A DNA stretch of 64,000 bases. It comes from Streptomyces sp. NBC_00539 (GTDB lineage: Bacteria > Actinomycetota > Actinomycetes > Streptomycetales > Streptomycetaceae). The notes beneath the pieces are model-generated. The model did not search any database, was not told the DNA's origin, and worked only from the letters and a program-made list of their open reading frames with translations. Below are positions 47,999 through 57,269 of the stretch, in pieces. The translations under genes and the position numbers were made by a program. The stretch is from contig NZ_CP107811.1 of the NCBI RefSeq assembly GCF_036346105.1, forward strand, positions 5,971,501 to 6,035,500, given 5' to 3'. Within the stretch, counting starts at the first letter, position 1, and each line of letters starts with the position of its first letter.

Positions 47999-49159
47999 AT
48001 GGAAATCCTTCAACAGCGCTCGGGCACGGCTCGGGAGCGCTCGGGTACCGCTCAAGTGTGGGAGGCCGCCGAGGAGTTCATCCGGCTCTTCCACCGGGAG
48101 AACCCGGATGCCGGTGATCTCGACGCCCGGCTGGCGGCCGTGCGCGCCGAAATCGCCCAGGCCGGCACCTACCGGCACACCCCGGACGAGCTCGTCCACG
48201 GTGCCCGGGTGGCCTGGCGCAACAGCAACCGCTGCATAGGCAGGCTCTACTGGAACTCGCTGCGGGTCCGCGACCGCCGTGGGCTCACCGACGGCGACGG
48301 CATCGCCGAAGAGTGCTTCGCGCACCTGCGGGAAGCCACCAACGGCGGCCGGGTACGGCCCACCATCACCGTCTTCGCACCCGACGCCCCGGACCGCCCC
48401 GGGCCGCTCATCTGGAGCGAGCAGCTCATCCGCTACGCCGGGTACGGCGACCACCCCTCCATAACCGTCGGCGACGCCCGCAACGCGCCGCTCACCAGGG
48501 CGCTGCTCGACCTGGGCTGGCCGGGCGGCCCCGGTACCCCCTTCGACCTCCTGCCGCTCGTCGTCCAGGGCGTGGACGACAAGCCCCGCTGGTTCGACAC
48601 CCCGGCGGACGCCGTGCTGGAGGTGCCGATCCGCCACCCGGACGGGCCCGACCACTGGGACGACTGGGGCCTGCGCTGGCACGCGGTCCCCGCCATCTCC
48701 AACATGTGCCTGGAGATCGGCGGCATCCACTATCCGGCCGCGCCGTTCAACGGCTGGTACATGGGCACCGAGATCGGCGCCCGCAACCTCGCCGACACCG
48801 ACCGGTACAACCTGCTCCCCGCCGTCGCCCGCAGGCTGGGGCTCGACACCTCCAGCGACCGCTCGCTCTGGAAGGACCGGGCGCTGGTCGAGCTGAACCG
48901 TGCGGTCCTGCACTCCTTCGACGAGGCCGGCGTGAGCATCTCCGACCACCACACCGAGTCCCGGCGGTTCCTCTCGCACCTGGAGCGCGAGGAGCGCAAG
49001 GGACGGGAGGTGGGCGCCGACTGGTCCTGGATCGTGCCGCCGATCTCCGGGGCGGCGACCCCCGTCTTCCACCGCACGTACGAGGACCGGCCGAGCGCCA
49101 CCGCGTACGTCCACCACGCCGGGGCCCACGAACGGGCCAAGGGACGGGACTTGGTCTAG
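47999..49159 (+). CDS. nos: Bacterial nitric oxide synthase, oxygenase domain
   Basis: The 386-residue protein is a stand-alone NOS oxygenase, which makes NO and citrulline from arginine with electrons from a separate reductase. The heme-thiolate cysteine is C79 in WRNSNRCIGRLYW. The substrate-binding region is NMCLEIGGIHYPAAPFNGWYMGTEIGARNL near residues 238-265, and the C-terminal SWIVPPISGAATPVFHRTYE segment is intact. There is no reductase domain, as in other Bacillus/Streptomyces enzymes. The 20-residue N-terminus carries short repeats (three GCTCGGG units). The lactonase gene follows by 54 bases. There is no secondary-metabolite gene cluster in view. Confidence 0.93.
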   Translation: MEILQQRSGTARERSGTAQVWEAAEEFIRLFHRENPDAGDLDARLAAVRAEIAQAGTYRHTPDELVHGARVAWRNSNRCIGRLYWNSLRVRDRRGLTDGDGIAEECFAHLREATNGGRVRPTITVFAPDAPDRPGPLIWSEQLIRYAGYGDHPSITVGDARNAPLTRALLDLGWPGGPGTPFDLLPLVVQGVDDKPRWFDTPADAVLEVPIRHPDGPDHWDDWGLRWHAVPAISNMCLEIGGIHYPAAPFNGWYMGTEIGARNLADTDRYNLLPAVARRLGLDTSSDRSLWKDRALVELNRAVLHSFDEAGVSISDHHTESRRFLSHLEREERKGREVGADWSWIVPPISGAATPVFHRTYEDRPSATAYVHHAGAHERAKGRDLV

Positions 49160-49213: not shown

Positions 49214-50284
49214 GTGGATGGCGCGCGCAGCACGGACCAGGGCGGCGGACACCGGGCCTACATCGGCTCGTTCACCTCGGGGGGCGGCCGCGGCATCACC
49301 ACCGCGGCCGTGGATCCGGCCACCGGGGCGCTGACGCCCCTCGCGGTTACCGGGACCGCCGAGAACCCCTCCTGCCTCACCCTCGCGCGCGAGCCGGGCG
49401 TGCTCTACGCGGTGAGCGAGGCGGAGCACGGAGCGGTCGCGGCGTTCCGGACCGGGGCCGACGGGCTCACCGCCCACGGACCGCTCGTCCCCGTCGGCGC
49501 GTCGGGCCCCACCCACCTCAGCCTGGCGGGGCAGCGACTGCTGACCGCCAACTACACCTCGGGCAGCGTCAGCTGCATCCCGCTCGCCACGGACGGCGCC
49601 CCCGGTGGTCCTCCGGCCGTCCTGGCCCACCAGGGCTCGGGACCCGACGCGGAGCGGCAGCAGGGGCCGCACGCCCACCAGGTGCTGCCCGACCCCAGCG
49701 GCCGCTGGGTCCTCAGCGTGGACCTCGGAACCGACTCCGTAAGGGTCTGCGCCCTCGGCCCGGCCGACGGCCCGCTGCGCCTTCACGCGGAGACGAAGCT
49801 GCGGGCCGGGTCAGGACCCCGCTACCTGGCCTTCCACCCGGACGGGGAGACGGTCTACGTCATCCACGAGCTGGAGCCGCTGCTGAGCGTGTGCCGCTGG
49901 AACGCGCGGACCGGGCGGCTGGAGGCCACCGCCGAGGTCGCGGTGCTCCCCGAGGACGTCCCGGCGGACCCCCGGCCCTACCCCTCGGTCGTCGCCGTGT
50001 CGCCCGACGGGCGGTTCGCATGGGCTGCCGTACGGGGAGTGAACACCATCGCCGCGTTCTCCCTCGCCGACGGGCCCGCCAAGCCCCGGCTCACCGGGAG
50101 CACGGACTGCGGGGGCAGTTGGCCGCGCGACCTCGTCGTGGACGGGGCGGGGCGCAGGCTGTACGTGGCCAACGAATGGTCCGGCGACGTCACCTGGTTC
50201 GACGTGGACCCCCTGACCGGCGAGCCCCGGGCAGCGGGTTCGATCGAGGTCCCGGCCGCCGCATGCGTGGTCTTCGGGCCCTAG
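49214..50284 (+). CDS. Lactonase family beta-propeller protein
   Basis: The 356-residue protein is a seven-bladed propeller of the YkgB/6-phosphogluconolactonase-like family (YIGSFTSGGGRGI at the start, then PSCLTLAREPGVLYAV, HAHQVLPDPSGRWVLSVDLG near 155 and YVANEWSGDVTWF near 320). It probably hydrolyses a sugar lactone. It begins at GTG with AGGGGC upstream, 54 bases after the nitric oxide synthase gene, so they may be cotranscribed, though a functional link is not obvious. Confidence 0.83.
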   Translation: MDGARSTDQGGGHRAYIGSFTSGGGRGITTAAVDPATGALTPLAVTGTAENPSCLTLAREPGVLYAVSEAEHGAVAAFRTGADGLTAHGPLVPVGASGPTHLSLAGQRLLTANYTSGSVSCIPLATDGAPGGPPAVLAHQGSGPDAERQQGPHAHQVLPDPSGRWVLSVDLGTDSVRVCALGPADGPLRLHAETKLRAGSGPRYLAFHPDGETVYVIHELEPLLSVCRWNARTGRLEATAEVAVLPEDVPADPRPYPSVVAVSPDGRFAWAAVRGVNTIAAFSLADGPAKPRLTGSTDCGGSWPRDLVVDGAGRRLYVANEWSGDVTWFDVDPLTGEPRAAGSIEVPAAACVVFGP

Positions 50285-50414: not shown

Positions 50415-51335
50415 TCAGTGGGCGGAGGCGCCCAGGGTGAGACCGAGGGCGGCGCTGTACTGGGCGACGGCCAGCTTGCCGAGCGCCGGGTAGGCCCCCA
50501 GCACCTCGGCGGTGGCGCAGTCGGCCTCCTTGCACGCCGTGTCCAGCAGCCCGTCGGCCGCCTCCGGGCCGATCAGGTACGGCGCCAGGGCCAGCTGGGT
50601 CGAGCCTTCGGTGCGCAGCTGGTCGGCGATGCCGGCCACCGACCCCTCCTGGTCCAGTGCGGCGGCCTTCACCGGCACCGCGAGGCGCGCGGCCAGCAGC
50701 ATGCCGGTGATCCCGGCGGCCTGGACGGCCTCCTCGCCACCGGTGGTGGCCAGGATGATGCCGTCGGCGGCGGTGGTGACGGTGAACAGCCGGGCCCGGT
50801 CGGCGCGGGCCAGCCCCGCCTCGGAGAGCCGCACGTGCAGTCCCTCGGCGAGCAGCGGGTGCGGGCCCAGTACGTCGGCCAGCTCGGCGGCGGCCGAGGA
50901 GTCCATCAGCGCCTGGCGGACGCGCCGCAGCAGGTCGCCGTCGGGACCGACGAGCAGGGGCACGACCACGGCGTCCGGGCCGGTCGCCTGCGCCACCTCG
51001 TGGCCGGCGGCGCGGGCGAACTCGGCGCGCGCGGCGCGCTCGTGCGCGACGGCGGTCAGCACGCCGGCCAGGGACGGGAACTGCGAGCCTTCGGAGTCGT
51101 CACCCTCCAGGTAGCCGATCCGGCCGTCCAGGCCGGGCAGCTCGGAGCGGCCGATGCTCAGGATCTCTTCCGCGAGCCCGCGCGAGGCGGCGGAAGGGGC
51201 ACCGGGCACGGCGAGCACCAGCGCGGGCGCGCCCTCGGGCGCCACCGCGGGCTCGGGGCGGCGGTGCCGTCCGGCAGGGCGGGGTCGCGGCATTCGTACG
51301 GGCAGGCCATTTGCGGGCCCAGTGGGGGAGCTCAT
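50415..51335 (-). CDS. CbiX/sirohydrochlorin ferrochelatase-like protein
   Basis: The 306-residue protein has a basic N-terminal tail of about 38 residues, then two similar halves of a chelatase fold (VLAVPGAPSAASRGLAEEI near residue 40, VVVPLLVGPDGDLLRRVRQAL near 122, and LALAPYLIGPEAADGLLDTA near 253). It belongs to the actinobacterial CbiX-like group; metal insertion into sirohydrochlorin is the family role. The catalytic histidine expected in the first half (VAHGS type) is replaced by VPGAP, so activity is uncertain. Confidence 0.7.
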   Translation of the reverse strand: MSSPTGPANGLPVRMPRPRPAGRHRRPEPAVAPEGAPALVLAVPGAPSAASRGLAEEILSIGRSELPGLDGRIGYLEGDDSEGSQFPSLAGVLTAVAHERAARAEFARAAGHEVAQATGPDAVVVPLLVGPDGDLLRRVRQALMDSSAAAELADVLGPHPLLAEGLHVRLSEAGLARADRARLFTVTTAADGIILATTGGEEAVQAAGITGMLLAARLAVPVKAAALDQEGSVAGIADQLRTEGSTQLALAPYLIGPEAADGLLDTACKEADCATAEVLGAYPALGKLAVAQYSAALGLTLGASAH

Positions 51336-52183: not shown

Positions 52184-53275
52184 CTACCCAGGCAGGACCG
52201 CCGCCCGCACGCAGAGCACGTCCGGCAGGTGCTCGGCCAGCAGTTGCCAGCTGTCCCCGTCGTCGTGGCTGGCGTACAGCTCGCCGTTGCGGTTGCCGAA
52301 GTAGATGCCCGCCGGATCCGCGTCGTCCGTGCAGAGCGCGTCCCGCAGCACCGTGCCGTAATGCTCCCCGGCCGGCAGGCCCTTCGAGAGCGGTTCCCAG
52401 TTCGCCCCCGCGTCCTCGGTGCGAAAGACCCGGCAGCGGTGCTCCGCCGGGACCCGGTCGGAGTCGGCGTTGAGGGGGAAGACGTACGCGGTGCCCGGGC
52501 GGTGCGGGTGGGCGGCCACCGCGAAGCCGAAGTCGGAGGGCAGTCCGGAGCCGATGTCGCTCCAGGCGTCCCCGGCGTCGTCGCTGCGGTAGACCCCCCA
52601 GTGGTTCTGGAGGTACAGCCGGTCGGGGTCGGCGGCGTCCCGGGCGACCTTGTGGACGCACTGCCCGAACTCGGGCTGCGGGTCGGGCAGGAACACCGCG
52701 GAGACCCCCCGGTTGGACGGGTCCCAGCTCGCGCCGCCGTCCTTCGTCCGGAAGACGCCGGCCGTGGAGACGGCCACCGTGACCGAGTCCGGGTCACCCG
52801 GATGGGTGATCACCGTGTGGAGCCCCTCGCCACCGCCGCCCGGTACCCAGCGCGAGCGGGTGGGGTGTTCCCACAGGGCGCGGACCAGTTCGAAGGACTC
52901 CCCGCGGTCGGTCGAGCGGAACAGTGCGGCCGGCTCCGTCCCGGCGTAGACCACGTCGGGGGCCTCCGGTCCGGCCGGTTGCAGTTGCCAGACCCGCTCC
53001 AGCGAGGCGCCGGTGTCCTGCGGGAACTTCACCGCGGCGGCGGTCGGCTCGCGCCAGGTGACGCCGAGGTCGTCGGAGTGGAAGACGGACGGCCCCCAGT
53101 GGGAGCTGTCTCCGCCCGCCAGCAGGCGCGGCGTGGAGCCCCGTACGTCGATGGCGACGGCCGAGACCGCCTGGGCGTTGAAGTGCGGCCCTTCGAACTT
53201 CCAGGGACCGGCCCCGTCGCGCCGGCCGATGAAGAGCCCCTTGCGGGTGCCCGCGAGCAGTAGCACATCGGACAT
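52184..53275 (-). CDS. Sialidase/BNR-repeat beta-propeller protein
   Basis: The 363-residue protein contains several Asp-box (S/D-x-D-x-G-x-x-W) repeats: SDDLGVTWRE near residue 67, STDRGESFEL near 116, TKDGGASW near 177, SDDAGDAWSD near 230, TEDAGANWEP near 284 and SHDDGDSWQL near 332. This matches the exo-alpha-sialidase/BNR or Ycf48-like propeller group. There is no signal peptide. Catalytic residues for sialidase are not apparent, so it is probably a non-enzymatic or unknown propeller. It is divergent from the Old Yellow Enzyme gene across an operator array. Confidence 0.82.
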   Translation of the reverse strand: MSDVLLLAGTRKGLFIGRRDGAGPWKFEGPHFNAQAVSAVAIDVRGSTPRLLAGGDSSHWGPSVFHSDDLGVTWREPTAAAVKFPQDTGASLERVWQLQPAGPEAPDVVYAGTEPAALFRSTDRGESFELVRALWEHPTRSRWVPGGGGEGLHTVITHPGDPDSVTVAVSTAGVFRTKDGGASWDPSNRGVSAVFLPDPQPEFGQCVHKVARDAADPDRLYLQNHWGVYRSDDAGDAWSDIGSGLPSDFGFAVAAHPHRPGTAYVFPLNADSDRVPAEHRCRVFRTEDAGANWEPLSKGLPAGEHYGTVLRDALCTDDADPAGIYFGNRNGELYASHDDGDSWQLLAEHLPDVLCVRAAVLPG

Positions 53276-53392
53276 GGCCGATACCTCCGGAAGTCCGTCA
53301 CGGCAGCCTTTCGGCCAGTGTGCACCCGGGCCGCTGACAGCGGCGTGCAACGCCGGCCCCCGGTGCGGTCCGCGCGGCGCAGCGGGAATTAG

Positions 53393-53442
53393 TACGAAGG
53401 GCTTCGTAGTACGAAGGAATTCGTAGTACGGTGACTCTCGTA
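53393..53442. promoter_or_regulatory. Three tandem 16-bp palindromic operators at 17-bp spacing
   Basis: TACGAAGGGCTTCGTA (53393-53408, seven-base arms), TACGAAGGAATTCGTA (53410-53425, six-base arms) and TACGGTGACTCTCGTA (53427-53442, four-base arms) follow each other with one base between. They lie about 50-100 bases before the Old Yellow Enzyme start. A fourth copy of the same form precedes the ArsR gene at 54639-54654. Confidence 0.85.
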
Positions 53443-53491
53443 CTTGCCGCCGGAGTCCCGGCGCGCGTCCCCGGTCACCCTGGAGAGCCTG

Positions 53492-54592
53492 ATGACTGCC
53501 GCCCCGGCTGCCTTCGCCGCCCTGTTCCAGCCCTACACCGTGCGATCGGTGACCATTGCCAACCGCGTGTGGATGGCCCCGATGTGCCAGTACAGCGCCG
53601 AGCCCGCCGGCCCCCGCGCGGGCGTGGCCAACGAGTGGCACGTAGCGCACTACGCGGCCCGCGCCGTCGGCGGCACCGGCCTGATCATCCAGGAGGCCAC
53701 CGCAGTCTCCCCGGAGGGCCGGATCACCCCCTACGACCTCGGCCTCTGGAACGACACCCAGACCGAGGCGCTGCGCCCGATCACCGCCTTCATCAAGGCG
53801 CAGGGGGCCGTGCCCGGCATCCAGATCGCGCATGCGGGCCGCAAGGGCTCCACCGAGCGCCCCTGGAAGGGCGGCCGGCCGGTCGGAGCCGAGGCGCACG
53901 GCTGGCAGCCCCTCGCGCCGAGCGCGGTGCCGTTCGGCGAAGGCGACCCCGTGCCCCACGAGCTGACGGCCGAGGAGATCCGTGCGGTCGTCGGCCAGTT
54001 CGCCGACACCGCCCGGCGCGCCCTGGCGGCCGGCTACGAACTGCTGGAGATCCACGGTGCCCACGGCTACCTGATCGGCGAGTTCCTCTCCCCGCACAGC
54101 AACCTGCGCACCGACGAGTACGGCGGCTCCTTCGAGAACCGCACCCGCCTCGCCCTCGACGTCGTGGACGCCGTACGGGCGGTGTGGCCCGAGGAACTCC
54201 CGCTGTTCTTCCGCGTCTCCGCGACCGACTGGCTGGAGGAGGGGGGCTGGACCGCCGACGACACCGTCCGGCTGGCCGGACTGCTCAAGGAGCACGGCGT
54301 GGACCTGCTGGACGTCTCCACGGGCGGGCTCGCGCCGCACGTGAGGATCCCGGTCGGCCCCGGCTACCAGGTGCCCTTCGCGGCGCGCGTCAAGCGCGAG
54401 ACCGGCCTGCCGGTCGCCGCGGTGGGTCTGATCACCGAGCCCGTCCAGGCGGAGAAGATCCTGGCCAACGGAGAGGCCGACGCGGTCCTGCTCGGCCGCG
54501 AACTGCTCCGCGACCCCTACTGGGCCCGGCGGGCGGCCGGCGAACTGGGCGTGGAGCCCCGCACCCCCGCCCCTTACCACCGCGGCTGGTGA
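53492..54592 (+). CDS. NADH:flavin oxidoreductase, Old Yellow Enzyme (YqjM-like)
   Basis: The 366-residue FMN enzyme reduces activated alkenes or nitro compounds. It has the thermophilic-like/YqjM features: cysteine C32 in APMCQYS that tunes the flavin, IAHAGRKGS near residue 110 and EIHGAHGYLIGEFLSPHSNLRTDEYGGSFENRTRL near 184. It also has FRVSATDW near 240 and a C-terminal HRGW. The start is ATG 53492, 5 bases after GGAGA. It is followed 131 bases later by the ArsR gene, with matching operator sites at both promoters, so substrate-type electrophiles probably induce it. Confidence 0.92.
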   Translation: MTAAPAAFAALFQPYTVRSVTIANRVWMAPMCQYSAEPAGPRAGVANEWHVAHYAARAVGGTGLIIQEATAVSPEGRITPYDLGLWNDTQTEALRPITAFIKAQGAVPGIQIAHAGRKGSTERPWKGGRPVGAEAHGWQPLAPSAVPFGEGDPVPHELTAEEIRAVVGQFADTARRALAAGYELLEIHGAHGYLIGEFLSPHSNLRTDEYGGSFENRTRLALDVVDAVRAVWPEELPLFFRVSATDWLEEGGWTADDTVRLAGLLKEHGVDLLDVSTGGLAPHVRIPVGPGYQVPFAARVKRETGLPVAAVGLITEPVQAEKILANGEADAVLLGRELLRDPYWARRAAGELGVEPRTPAPYHRGW

Positions 54593-54638
54593 ACCGTGGG
54601 CGGCGCCGGTCACCGCCCGCCCGGCGCCGCAGGTGTCC

Positions 54639-54654
54639 TACGATGGTTCTCGTA
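54639..54654. promoter_or_regulatory. Fourth TACGA-type 16-bp operator before the ArsR gene
   Basis: TACGATGGTTCTCGTA has five-base arms and the same length and outer sequence as the three palindromes at 53393-53442 (form TACGA-N6-TCGTA). It lies 70 bases before the ArsR gene start, so the regulator probably controls itself too. Confidence 0.75.
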
Positions 54655-54723
54655 CCTCGGTGCGGTGCGCCGGTGTACGCCGAGGTGCGAGGGCGCCGAG
54701 TGAACGAGTGAGTGGAGGAGCAG

Positions 54724-55095
54724 ATGCCGCAGCCGGCCGCCACCACGCGCCCGCTCGCCCATCCCGGGAGTGCCGAGATCCGCCTGGAAGGGGTCCTGCA
54801 CGCCCTCTCGGACCCCGTCCGGCTGTCGATCGTCCGCGAACTGGCCGCGGCCGCCGAGGAGCTGGCCTGCTCGCACTTCGTGCTGCCGGTCACCAAGTCC
54901 ACCACCACCCACCACTTCCGGGTCCTGCGCGAGGCCGGGGTCGTGCGGCAGACCTACCGCGGCACCACCAAGCTGAACGACCTGCGCCGCGCCGACCTGG
55001 AAGCCCTCTTCCCGGGCCTCCTGGACACCGTCCTGACGGCGGCCGGCGCCGAAGCGGCCCGCCTGGACGCGGCGGGCGCGGGCGCGCGCCCCTGA
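54724..55095 (+). CDS. ArsR/SmtB family transcriptional regulator
   Basis: The 123-residue protein has an ArsR-type winged helix: RLEGVLHALSDPVRLSIVRELA near residue 22, recognition helix VTKSTTTHHFRVLREAGVVRQTYRGTTK near 60. It lacks a CxC or CxxC metal site, having one cysteine (LACSHF). This subgroup is usually redox- or small-molecule-responsive. ATG 54724 has GGAGGAG five bases upstream; GTG 54712 is possible. It lies downstream of the Old Yellow Enzyme gene on the same strand and very probably binds the TACGA operators. Confidence 0.9.
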   Translation: MPQPAATTRPLAHPGSAEIRLEGVLHALSDPVRLSIVRELAAAAEELACSHFVLPVTKSTTTHHFRVLREAGVVRQTYRGTTKLNDLRRADLEALFPGLLDTVLTAAGAEAARLDAAGAGARP

Positions 55096-55191: not shown

Positions 55192-56547
55192 CTACGTTCC
55201 GGCCGCGCCCAGCAGGCCCGCCCAGTCCGGGATCTTGACCGAGCGGCGTCCCAGGGAGCGGCCCAGATCGGCCTCCGCGTTCTCGATGGCCAGCCAACCG
55301 GGCCACTGCACCGGCCTGAGTCCTGCCGCGCGCAGCGCCTCCAGGGGATCCTGCTCCAGCTCGCGGCGGGCCAGCGCCCCCGCGTCCTGGAGCAGGGAGG
55401 ACGCCGTCTCCTTCGCACACGGCCGGTTGGTGCCGATCACCCCGGTCGGGCCGCGCTTGATCCACCCCGCGACGTACTCGCCGACCGAGGCCCGGCCCTC
55501 GCGCAGCACCCGGCCCGCCGCGTGCGGGACCGTGCCCGTCGCCGGGTCGAAGGGCAGCCCGGGCAGTGGCACGCCCCGGTACCCCACCGACCGCAGCACC
55601 AGCTGCGCCGGGACGTCCTCGTACACGCCGGTGCCGCCCACCCCGCCACGACCGTCGGGGGCGGTCCGCTCGAAGCGCACCGCGGCGACCCCGCCGCCGG
55701 GCCCCGCCAGCACCTCCACGGGCCGCAGGAAGAACCGCAGCGTGATGTTCCGCTCCGCCTCGCCGGGGGCCGCCACGGCCCAGGCGCGCAGCACCTCCAG
55801 GTTCCGCCGGGCCACCGCGGGCAGGGCGGCCGCCGCACCGGGGTCCTCGTAGGCGGGGTCCAGCGCGAGTTCGGCAGGGTCCACCCGTACGCCCACGCCC
55901 GGCAGGGTGCCCAGCTCCCGGAGCTCCTTGGTGGTGAACTTGCCCTGCGAAGGCCCCCGCCGGGCCACCATCGACACCGCGCGCACCCCGCTCGCCGCGA
56001 GAGCGCCCAGGGCGGCCTGCGGCATGTCGGTGGGCGCCAGTTCGGGCACGCCCCGGGCCAGGATCCGGGTCACGTCGACCGCCACGTTGCCCGCGCCGAC
56101 CACCACCGCCGACCCGACTCCGGAGAGGTCGAAGGCCTCCTCCGCCGCGTCGGGATGTCCGCTGTACCAGGACACGAACGCCGTCGCGGAGTGGACGCCG
56201 GGCAACTCCTCGCCGGGAATGCCCAGGCGCCGGTCCCGGGCGGCGCCGACGCAGTACACCACCGCGTGGTACATCTCGCGCAGCCGGGCCGTCGGCAGGG
56301 CGGGACCGCCCACCTCCACGTTGCCGAGGAAGCGGATCCCTTCGTCCTCCAGCACCGAGCGCAGACTTCCGGTCAGGGATTTGATCTTCTCGTGGTCGGG
56401 GGCCACCCCGTACCGCACGAGCCCGTACGGAGCCGGCAGCCGGTCCAGGACGTCCACCAGGACGCCCGGCACCTCGCGCTGCTGGACCAGGGTCTGCGCG
56501 GCGTAGACCCCGCTGGGGCCCGAACCGACGACGGCGACACGAAGCAC
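55192..56547 (-). CDS. fprA: Ferredoxin-NADP+ reductase, FprA/adrenodoxin reductase type
   Basis: The 451-residue FAD protein passes electrons from NADPH to ferredoxin. It starts VAVVGSGPSGVYAAQTLVQ (FAD GxGxxG at residues 8-13), then RLPAPYGLVRYGVAPDHEKIKSL near 40, the NADP-binding VVVGAGNVAVDVTRILARG near 150 and a C-terminal GWIKRGPTGVIGTNRPCAKET near 365. It begins at GTG 56547 with GGGAGGAG upstream. It could supply electrons to the nitric oxide synthase or other heme enzymes, but no direct evidence links them. Confidence 0.92.
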   Translation of the reverse strand: MLRVAVVGSGPSGVYAAQTLVQQREVPGVLVDVLDRLPAPYGLVRYGVAPDHEKIKSLTGSLRSVLEDEGIRFLGNVEVGGPALPTARLREMYHAVVYCVGAARDRRLGIPGEELPGVHSATAFVSWYSGHPDAAEEAFDLSGVGSAVVVGAGNVAVDVTRILARGVPELAPTDMPQAALGALAASGVRAVSMVARRGPSQGKFTTKELRELGTLPGVGVRVDPAELALDPAYEDPGAAAALPAVARRNLEVLRAWAVAAPGEAERNITLRFFLRPVEVLAGPGGGVAAVRFERTAPDGRGGVGGTGVYEDVPAQLVLRSVGYRGVPLPGLPFDPATGTVPHAAGRVLREGRASVGEYVAGWIKRGPTGVIGTNRPCAKETASSLLQDAGALARRELEQDPLEALRAAGLRPVQWPGWLAIENAEADLGRSLGRRSVKIPDWAGLLGAAGT

Positions 56548-56600
56548 GGCGGAGCTCCTCCCGCAGGTGCCTCCCAGCATGACACCGGGTGCCGCAACCG

Positions 56601-57269
56601 TCAGCCCATGGCGCGCATCCGGTCGATCTCGGCGCTCTGCGTGGCCACCAGCTCGGTCGCCATCTCCTCGACTGCGACGTTGTTGCCCTGGGCGAGCGCC
56701 TCGCCGGCCATCTTCAAGGCGCCTTGGTGGTGGGCGGTCATCAGGCTCAGGAAGAGCCGGTCGAACTCCGGCCCCGTGGCGCCGGTCAGCTCCCCCAGCT
56801 GCCGTTCCGTCGCCATCCCCGGCATCGCCCCGTGGTCGTGGCCGGCCGCGGCGCCGTCGGCGGGGGAGGGCTCGGGGTAGCGCGCCAGCCACTTCTCCAT
56901 CGCCCCGATCTCGGGCCCCTGTGCCGCCGCGATCCGTTCGGCGAGGCGCTTGACCCCGTCCGCCGAGGCCCGTCCCGGTGCCAGCGCGCTCATCGCCAGG
57001 GCCTGGCGGTGGTGCTCGATCATGTGGCGTACGTAGGCGTGGTCGGCGGCGTTGGGGGTGTCGTCGGGCCGCTCCTTCGCGGCCCGGCCGGGCGAGAGCG
57101 TCCGGGCCTGCTCGCCCGGTCTGCCGGGGGCGATCACCACCGGCCCGGCGTCGTCCGCCCGGTCGTCACCCTGGCAGCCGGTGAGGGTGAACAGGAGTCC
57201 GGCGGCCAGGGCCGCCGCCCCGAGGAATCGGCCGAGTAACGCATTTGCCATGTCCATGAAAAGCAACAT
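56601..57269 (-). CDS. DUF305 lipoprotein
   Basis: The protein of about 222 residues has a signal peptide with lipobox LTGC near residue 34, so it is probably a lipid-anchored extracytoplasmic protein. Two DUF305 repeats follow, with conserved histidine pairs in HMIEHHRQALAMS near residue 95 and LMTAHHQGALKMA near 180, and a histidine-rich GHDHGAMPGM linker between them. Metal binding is likely. Starts at 57269, 57257 and 57251 are all possible and none has a good ribosome site. It is divergent from the LVIVD gene. Confidence 0.85.
   Translation of the reverse strand: MLLFMDMANALLGRFLGAAALAAGLLFTLTGCQGDDRADDAGPVVIAPGRPGEQARTLSPGRAAKERPDDTPNAADHAYVRHMIEHHRQALAMSALAPGRASADGVKRLAERIAAAQGPEIGAMEKWLARYPEPSPADGAAAGHDHGAMPGMATERQLGELTGATGPEFDRLFLSLMTAHHQGALKMAGEALAQGNNVAVEEMATELVATQSAEIDRMRAMG

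Follow-up and report, generated by a model that had tools for sequence, protein, structure and literature searches.

The closest described counterpart of the locus analysed here is the CyeR-Cye1 pair of Corynebacterium glutamicum, which Ehira et al. reportedly described in 2010 and in which CyeR is said to act as a repressor. In the available parts of two sources, CyeR is given as an ArsR-family redox regulator of an Old Yellow Enzyme (OYE) gene (PMC8960804, PMC7532634). Its critical cysteine sits at the position of Cys41 in RexT, and a second cysteine lies seven residues away (PMC8960804, excerpt). An intramolecular disulfide has been suggested for CyeR. According to the same excerpt, RexT of Nostoc controls thioredoxin, switches by a vicinal Cys40-Cys41 disulfide and has ATTCG-N15-CGAAT as its reported operator, while some RexT homologs lack Cys40 (PMC8960804). 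OYEs are widespread, and their physiological roles are, in the accessible portion of PMC5891007, described as not fully resolved.

Here, we show that the window (i.e., the whole 64-kb stretch of DNA analysed) carries a pair like CyeR-Cye1, a putatively redox-responsive ArsR-family regulator with an OYE gene. The putative target is an OYE gene of YqjM/NamA type (53492-54592, + strand; PF00724, E = 8.5 × 10−77), followed by a gene for an ArsR-fold regulator of CyeR/RexT type (54724-55095, + strand; alternative GTG start at 54712), whose 123-residue product has a single cysteine, Cys49. It is very probable, in our view, that this adjacent regulator is a CyeR/RexT-type repressor responsive to redox change or electrophiles, which binds four palindromes and controls both the OYE gene and itself; binding, repression, cooperativity, inducer and reset are steps that we infer. 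This locus of a soil bacterium is thus probably a redox regulon of CyeR type and adds a clear new case to a known class of switches. CyeR-type control of an OYE is already known from Corynebacterium. An earlier reading based on the letters of the window (hereafter, the sequence-only reading) had not recognised the array, whereas the regulator-OYE pair proves to be of the CyeR-Cye1 kind. In the literature searched, which did not extend to the original CyeR study, we found no description of the operator in Streptomyces, nor of the 17-bp operator code, the promoter-like boxes within it and the one-cysteine sensor.

Upstream of the OYE gene, three palindromes of the form TACGA-N6-TCGTA follow one another at a period of exactly 17 bp. 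Unit 1 (53393-53408, TACGAAGGGCTTCGTA) has 7-bp arms, perfect as in all four sites, and shows the exact pattern, which is confined to this locus; unit 2 (53410-53425, TACGAAGGAATTCGTA) has 6-bp arms and is a full site in the window; unit 3 (53427-53442, TACGGTGACTCTCGTA) has 4-bp arms and one mismatch to the core. A single operator with 5-bp arms (54639-54654, TACGATGGTTCTCGTA) ends 69 bp 5' of the ArsR ATG and is a putative autoregulatory site; none of the four is assigned a strand. The end of unit 3 lies 49 bp from the OYE ATG, and the start of the array 117 bp from the start of a BNR/Asp-box gene (52184-53275, − strand) that is upstream of and divergent from the OYE gene. The sequence-only reading had proposed three 16-bp palindromes at a 17-bp period, with arms declining from seven to four bases, between the OYE gene and a divergent BNR propeller gene, as well as a fourth copy before the ArsR gene, and both the arm lengths and the locations bear it out. 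Units 1 and 2 form a further palindrome with 7-bp arms across their junction, which makes the register ambiguous in the array. A palindrome centred between these units was rejected, and the register was fixed as TACGA-N6-TCGTA because isolated single sites before regulator genes show that form.

We rejected chance palindromes as an explanation on the basis of shuffles, genome counts, a first-order model, conservation of the locus and a tandem search against a control. At ≤1 mismatch, the window contains four matches, which are exactly the four sites (shuffle mean 0.14), and 0 of 100 shuffles reached that number. Relaxing the scan to two mismatches gave an unexceptional result (9 matches vs 7.16 expected), and a window-only search at this setting would have missed the signal. 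The sequence-only reading had suggested a genome-wide search and had regarded frequent random occurrence of the sites as evidence against it. In the 7.5-Mb genome, the exact pattern is confined to three places, each of them at the OYE/ArsR locus, with 0 occurrences of the reversed control pattern; under a first-order model with the composition of the window, 0.55 exact matches and 4 × 10−8 exact pairs at 17-bp spacing are expected per genome. At one mismatch, 34 places were recovered against 10 for the control pattern, and isolated imperfect matches therefore carry little meaning.

Other genomes were searched with a tandem query (two sites 34 bp apart, two mismatches allowed), which matched in 199 of 296 same-genus genomes, the control scoring 0 in every genome row. 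All 30 of the tandem arrays fetched lie beside an OYE gene. Across the 37 same-genus genomes common to the regulator and tandem searches, the 34-bp array was present in 27 of 28 genomes with a regulator ortholog and in 0 of 9 without (Fisher P = 8 × 10−8), where orthologs were defined by at least 60% identity, a cut-off chosen after the result of the regulator search was seen. The sole ortholog-bearing genome that lacks the array (G010) has a 17-bp pair instead. A search of 61 genomes for the single exact motif gave 135 forward and 21 control matches, and 16 of the 30 loci fetched have no ArsR or OYE relative within ~1.5 kb; the single motif was therefore rejected as a specific mark in other genomes, that role falling to the tandem array.

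Starting from the regulator protein, we fetched 195 loci, namely 30 from relatives, 30 from the class, 30 from one other family, 25 from inferred Corynebacterium and 80 from named genomes, the last being among the matches listed. An OYE gene is present in the fetched stretch of 122 of them (121 distinct, as one, L085, repeats the window locus; it was dropped from distinct counts and is still within 122 of 122 and 124 of 128 below). Only 120 different OYE sequences entered the OYE tree from these 122 rows, so that the named and unnamed sets overlap slightly. With OYE starts estimated from alignment, the motif (≤1 mismatch) lies within ~300 bp upstream of the OYE in 122 of 122 OYE-linked loci, against a background of ~0.009 per 330 bp in the remainder of the same loci. 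Of 128 distances from one site to the next, 124 measure 17, 34, 51 or 68 bp (122 of 126 once the repeat is removed), and the 121 distinct loci carry one (13 loci), two (94), three (12) or five (2) sites upstream of the OYE. At a locus from another family (L033), the stretch that separates regulator and OYE contains six units in 17-bp register, one of them with two mismatches.

The motif is also found at 32 of the 73 regulator loci without an OYE in the fetched stretch, distributed as 7 of 7 among relatives, 1 of 1 in the class, 8 of 27 in the other family, 2 of 23 in inferred Corynebacterium and 14 of 15 in named genomes. Since the two other-group sets together show any motif at only 10 of 50 such regulator-like loci, the code is not common to all relatives; it is kept by OYE-linked regulators and by some, not all, of their relatives. 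One ArsR group of another actinobacterial family (L161, L163 and L166-L168) has sites 34 bp apart and no OYE nearby; in L161 and L163, the only two read, a glycosyltransferase-like gene lies nearby according to an ORF reading. Another ArsR relative (L038, L059, L131) has an upstream motif paired with an imperfect one at a distance of 28 bp, rather than 17 or 34, near a transporter-like ORF.

These counts bear on whether the sites could belong to a different regulator encoded elsewhere (e.g., of TetR or MarR type), with the ArsR gene being one more target. The binding protein cannot be told from a palindrome by itself, and the exact single motifs lying away from CyeR-like genes in the 61 genomes, including the 16 loci without an ArsR or OYE relative, would suit such a regulator; against this, the array and the ArsR ortholog occur together (27 of 28 vs 0 of 9), and some ArsR relatives that lack an OYE carry the motif upstream, several at 34-bp spacing. 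We regard a different regulator as improbable.

Genomes in which the two genes lie apart point to the adjacent regulator as well. The OYE is 83 kb from the regulator in one genome (G036) and 4 kb in another (G019), and in both the OYE keeps the array and the regulator keeps a single site. At one locus with convergent genes (L086), one imperfect site precedes the OYE and none the regulator. Because the sites are conserved, are kept when the genes separate and co-occur with the regulator, a putative local ArsR/OYE regulon with a dedicated operator, as the sequence-only reading had it, is strongly supported.

Comparison of the arrays revealed promoter-like boxes inside them. In 80 of the 83 opposite-strand arrays with a 34-bp pair, unit 2 contains a -35-like TTGAC and unit 3 contains TAnnnT, separated by a 19-bp spacer. 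Neither box occurs in any of the eight same-strand loci with a 34-bp pair, the window included, where unit 2 shows 0 to 2 mismatches to the operator. Two further same-strand loci outside this count (L098 and L101) still have TTTGAC in the array, so the flip of the OYE and the loss of the boxes need not coincide. In the window, TACGGT in unit 3 might serve as a -10 box, which is a guess from its letters. In relatives that have the boxes, a repressor bound to units 2 and 3 would lie over such a promoter. The sequence-only reading had taken the array as a series of strong and weak sites; the declining symmetry is there, while the low-symmetry units are mostly explained in relatives by promoter-like boxes. 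That is, in most relatives the lesser symmetry of units 2 and 3 reflects boxes laid over them and not only graded affinity.

The window array itself lacks both TTGAC and TAnnnT where these boxes usually lie, and no promoter emerged from a sigma-70-type scan of 53276-53500, which is what might be expected if the oxidised regulator activated the OYE gene, rather than the reduced regulator repressing it. However, operator units overlie promoter-like boxes in most relatives, an arrangement suited to occlusion, and a site ahead of the regulator gene is in keeping with autorepression, so activation appears very unlikely to us.

The regulator protein resembles RexT more than any other structure compared. 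RexT is its best PDB sequence match (E = 1.4 × 10−26), and RexT chains occupy the top six places in a Foldseek search with its AlphaFold model (pLDDT 88.8; best E = 1.1 × 10−11, rmsd ~1 Å), with SrnR, CadC, HlyU, BigR and SmtB structures at E = 10−3 or worse. As in RexT (PDB 7txm, 7txn, 7txo), equivalents of R26, C41, K50, R61 and N77 are present in the window protein (RexT numbers were derived from chain numbering with an offset of two, consistent with all residues named). Cys49, its sole cysteine, aligns with the peroxidatic Cys41, a position occupied by Cys in all 120 OYE-linked relatives; R26, K50 and R61 equivalents are kept in 120, 119 and 120 of the 120, respectively, and the Asn77 position, Asn in the window, holds Asn in 76 relatives and Ser in the other 44. 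Invariance extends from the cysteine to DNA-contact residues. The excerpt of PMC8960804 places the critical cysteine of CyeR at the Cys41 position, and the window protein has its only cysteine there. Unlike CyeR in that description, the window protein has no second cysteine seven residues off; unlike RexT, it has Ala at the Cys40 position, which is Cys in 0 of 120 relatives. Its operator also differs from the one reported for RexT in that excerpt (TACGA-N6-TCGTA vs ATTCG-N15-CGAAT). That no second cysteine is available for an intramolecular disulfide says more about mechanism than about membership of the group, since Cys40 itself is missing from some RexT homologs. At the other-family locus with six operator units, the regulator has two cysteines seven residues apart and a further one; the first of the pair, not the second, aligns with RexT Cys41.

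The absence of an obvious metal site, claimed in the sequence-only reading, fits a protein with one cysteine in its whole length, and an oxidant or electrophile as candidate signal fits the alignment of that cysteine with RexT Cys41. That the regulator is instead a metal sensor, with the OYE serving metal stress, draws on its ArsR/SmtB fold, an NCBIfam HTH_metalloreg match of 42.6 bits (below the cut-off of 55) and PDB relatives of the OYE named chromate reductase, but we do not favour it and consider it the remotest of the alternatives, given a single cysteine aligned with the peroxidatic residue of RexT and a fold match to RexT at E = 10−11 against 10−3 or worse for other ArsR-family structures.

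The OYE is NamA-like (E = 6.8 × 10−122), with its nearest relatives in the YqjM class. It belongs to the same family as the YqjM/NamA-type OYEs (PDB 1z41), but its score against the NCBIfam NamA profile (406.7 bits) is below the cut-off of 431.

Under the preferred reading of a CyeR/RexT-type repressor, dimers in unstressed cells would sit both on the 17-bp-period array upstream of the OYE gene and on the single site ahead of the regulator gene, and so hold down both genes. With a helical repeat of 10.5 bp, each unit is rotated by ~223° around the helix relative to the next, and dimers on opposite faces may therefore bind cooperatively. If Cys49 were oxidised or alkylated, DNA binding would weaken; the OYE would then be made and would reduce quinones, enals or related electrophiles, after which the repressor would reset. 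Without a second cysteine, an intramolecular disulfide like that suggested for CyeR or the Cys40-Cys41 bond of RexT would not form, making a sulfenic acid, a mixed disulfide (e.g., with mycothiol) or alkylation the likelier modification.

A more ambitious joint reading is possible, although we lean against it as a whole. The 17-bp-period array would be a tunable cooperative operator, with dimers alternating around the helix on one to six units and with boxes inside the array in most species. A single-cysteine sensor of electrophiles or mycothiolation would turn it into a sharp switch. The OYE would destroy the inducing electrophile and close the loop, and an OYE that in some lineages was flipped or moved would take its array along.

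The tandem operator, a conserved mark of OYE promoters across many actinobacteria, provides a handle on the stress that these enzymes serve, and it is also a compact promoter for a redox reporter. With a lone cysteine at the RexT Cys41 position in all 120 relatives and the second one absent, switching by a one-cysteine ArsR protein becomes directly testable.

Among the named-genome matches listed, none is from Corynebacterium glutamicum, and in the inferred Corynebacterium set an OYE is present at only 2 of 25 loci. The 16-bp sites, including two at a distance of 17 bp, occur at the two regulator-OYE loci of that set (L173 and L174, in genomes G970 and G944), where regulator and OYE are divergent; in the window both genes are on the same strand, with three in-register units and a separate single site. 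The L174 regulator has cysteines seven residues apart, at 36 and 43 counted from the ATG, which we take to be the numbers of the CyeR cysteines. The best-match stretches of two other genomes (G852 and G799) contain an ArsR gene whose product lacks the cysteine, and neither an OYE nor a site, and a strong regulator match in G1001 (L175) has neither OYE nor motif in its stretch.

The same-strand layout is the minority arrangement. The OYE and regulator are on opposite strands at 109 of 121 distinct loci (the convergent L086 included) and on the same strand at 12, the latter layout being that of the window and of Streptomyces such as S. griseus BIG105, S. clavifer, S. fulvorobeus and S. virginiae. 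A check of 16 same-strand loci placed a site before the regulator in 13 (one with one mismatch) and none within 260 bp of it in three. Parsimony on a quick OYE tree requires four changes of orientation, of which the starred branches force only one.

The BNR gene, a candidate member of the regulon, is downstream of the OYE and on its strand at 18 of the 20 distinct loci whose fetched stretch shows it, against the upstream, divergent position seen in the window; it is upstream on the other strand at 2 of 121 distinct loci and absent from the fetched stretch at 101, among which the window locus (L004) is counted because its fetched stretch is too short to reach the BNR gene. Beyond the BNR gene, an ORF at 50415-51335 (− strand) resembles, by reading, a sirohydrochlorin-chelatase-type protein and has no Pfam match at E = 0.001. 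Farther out, a gene with a bacterial nitric oxide synthase oxygenase domain (47999-49159, + strand; PF02898, E = 1.4 × 10−144) has a lactonase-type propeller gene (49214-50284; PF10282) on its 3' side. On the opposite flank, a pyridine-nucleotide-disulphide oxidoreductase gene (55192-56817, − strand) is convergent with the ArsR gene, and a relative of it lies near the regulator in many of the fetched loci too.
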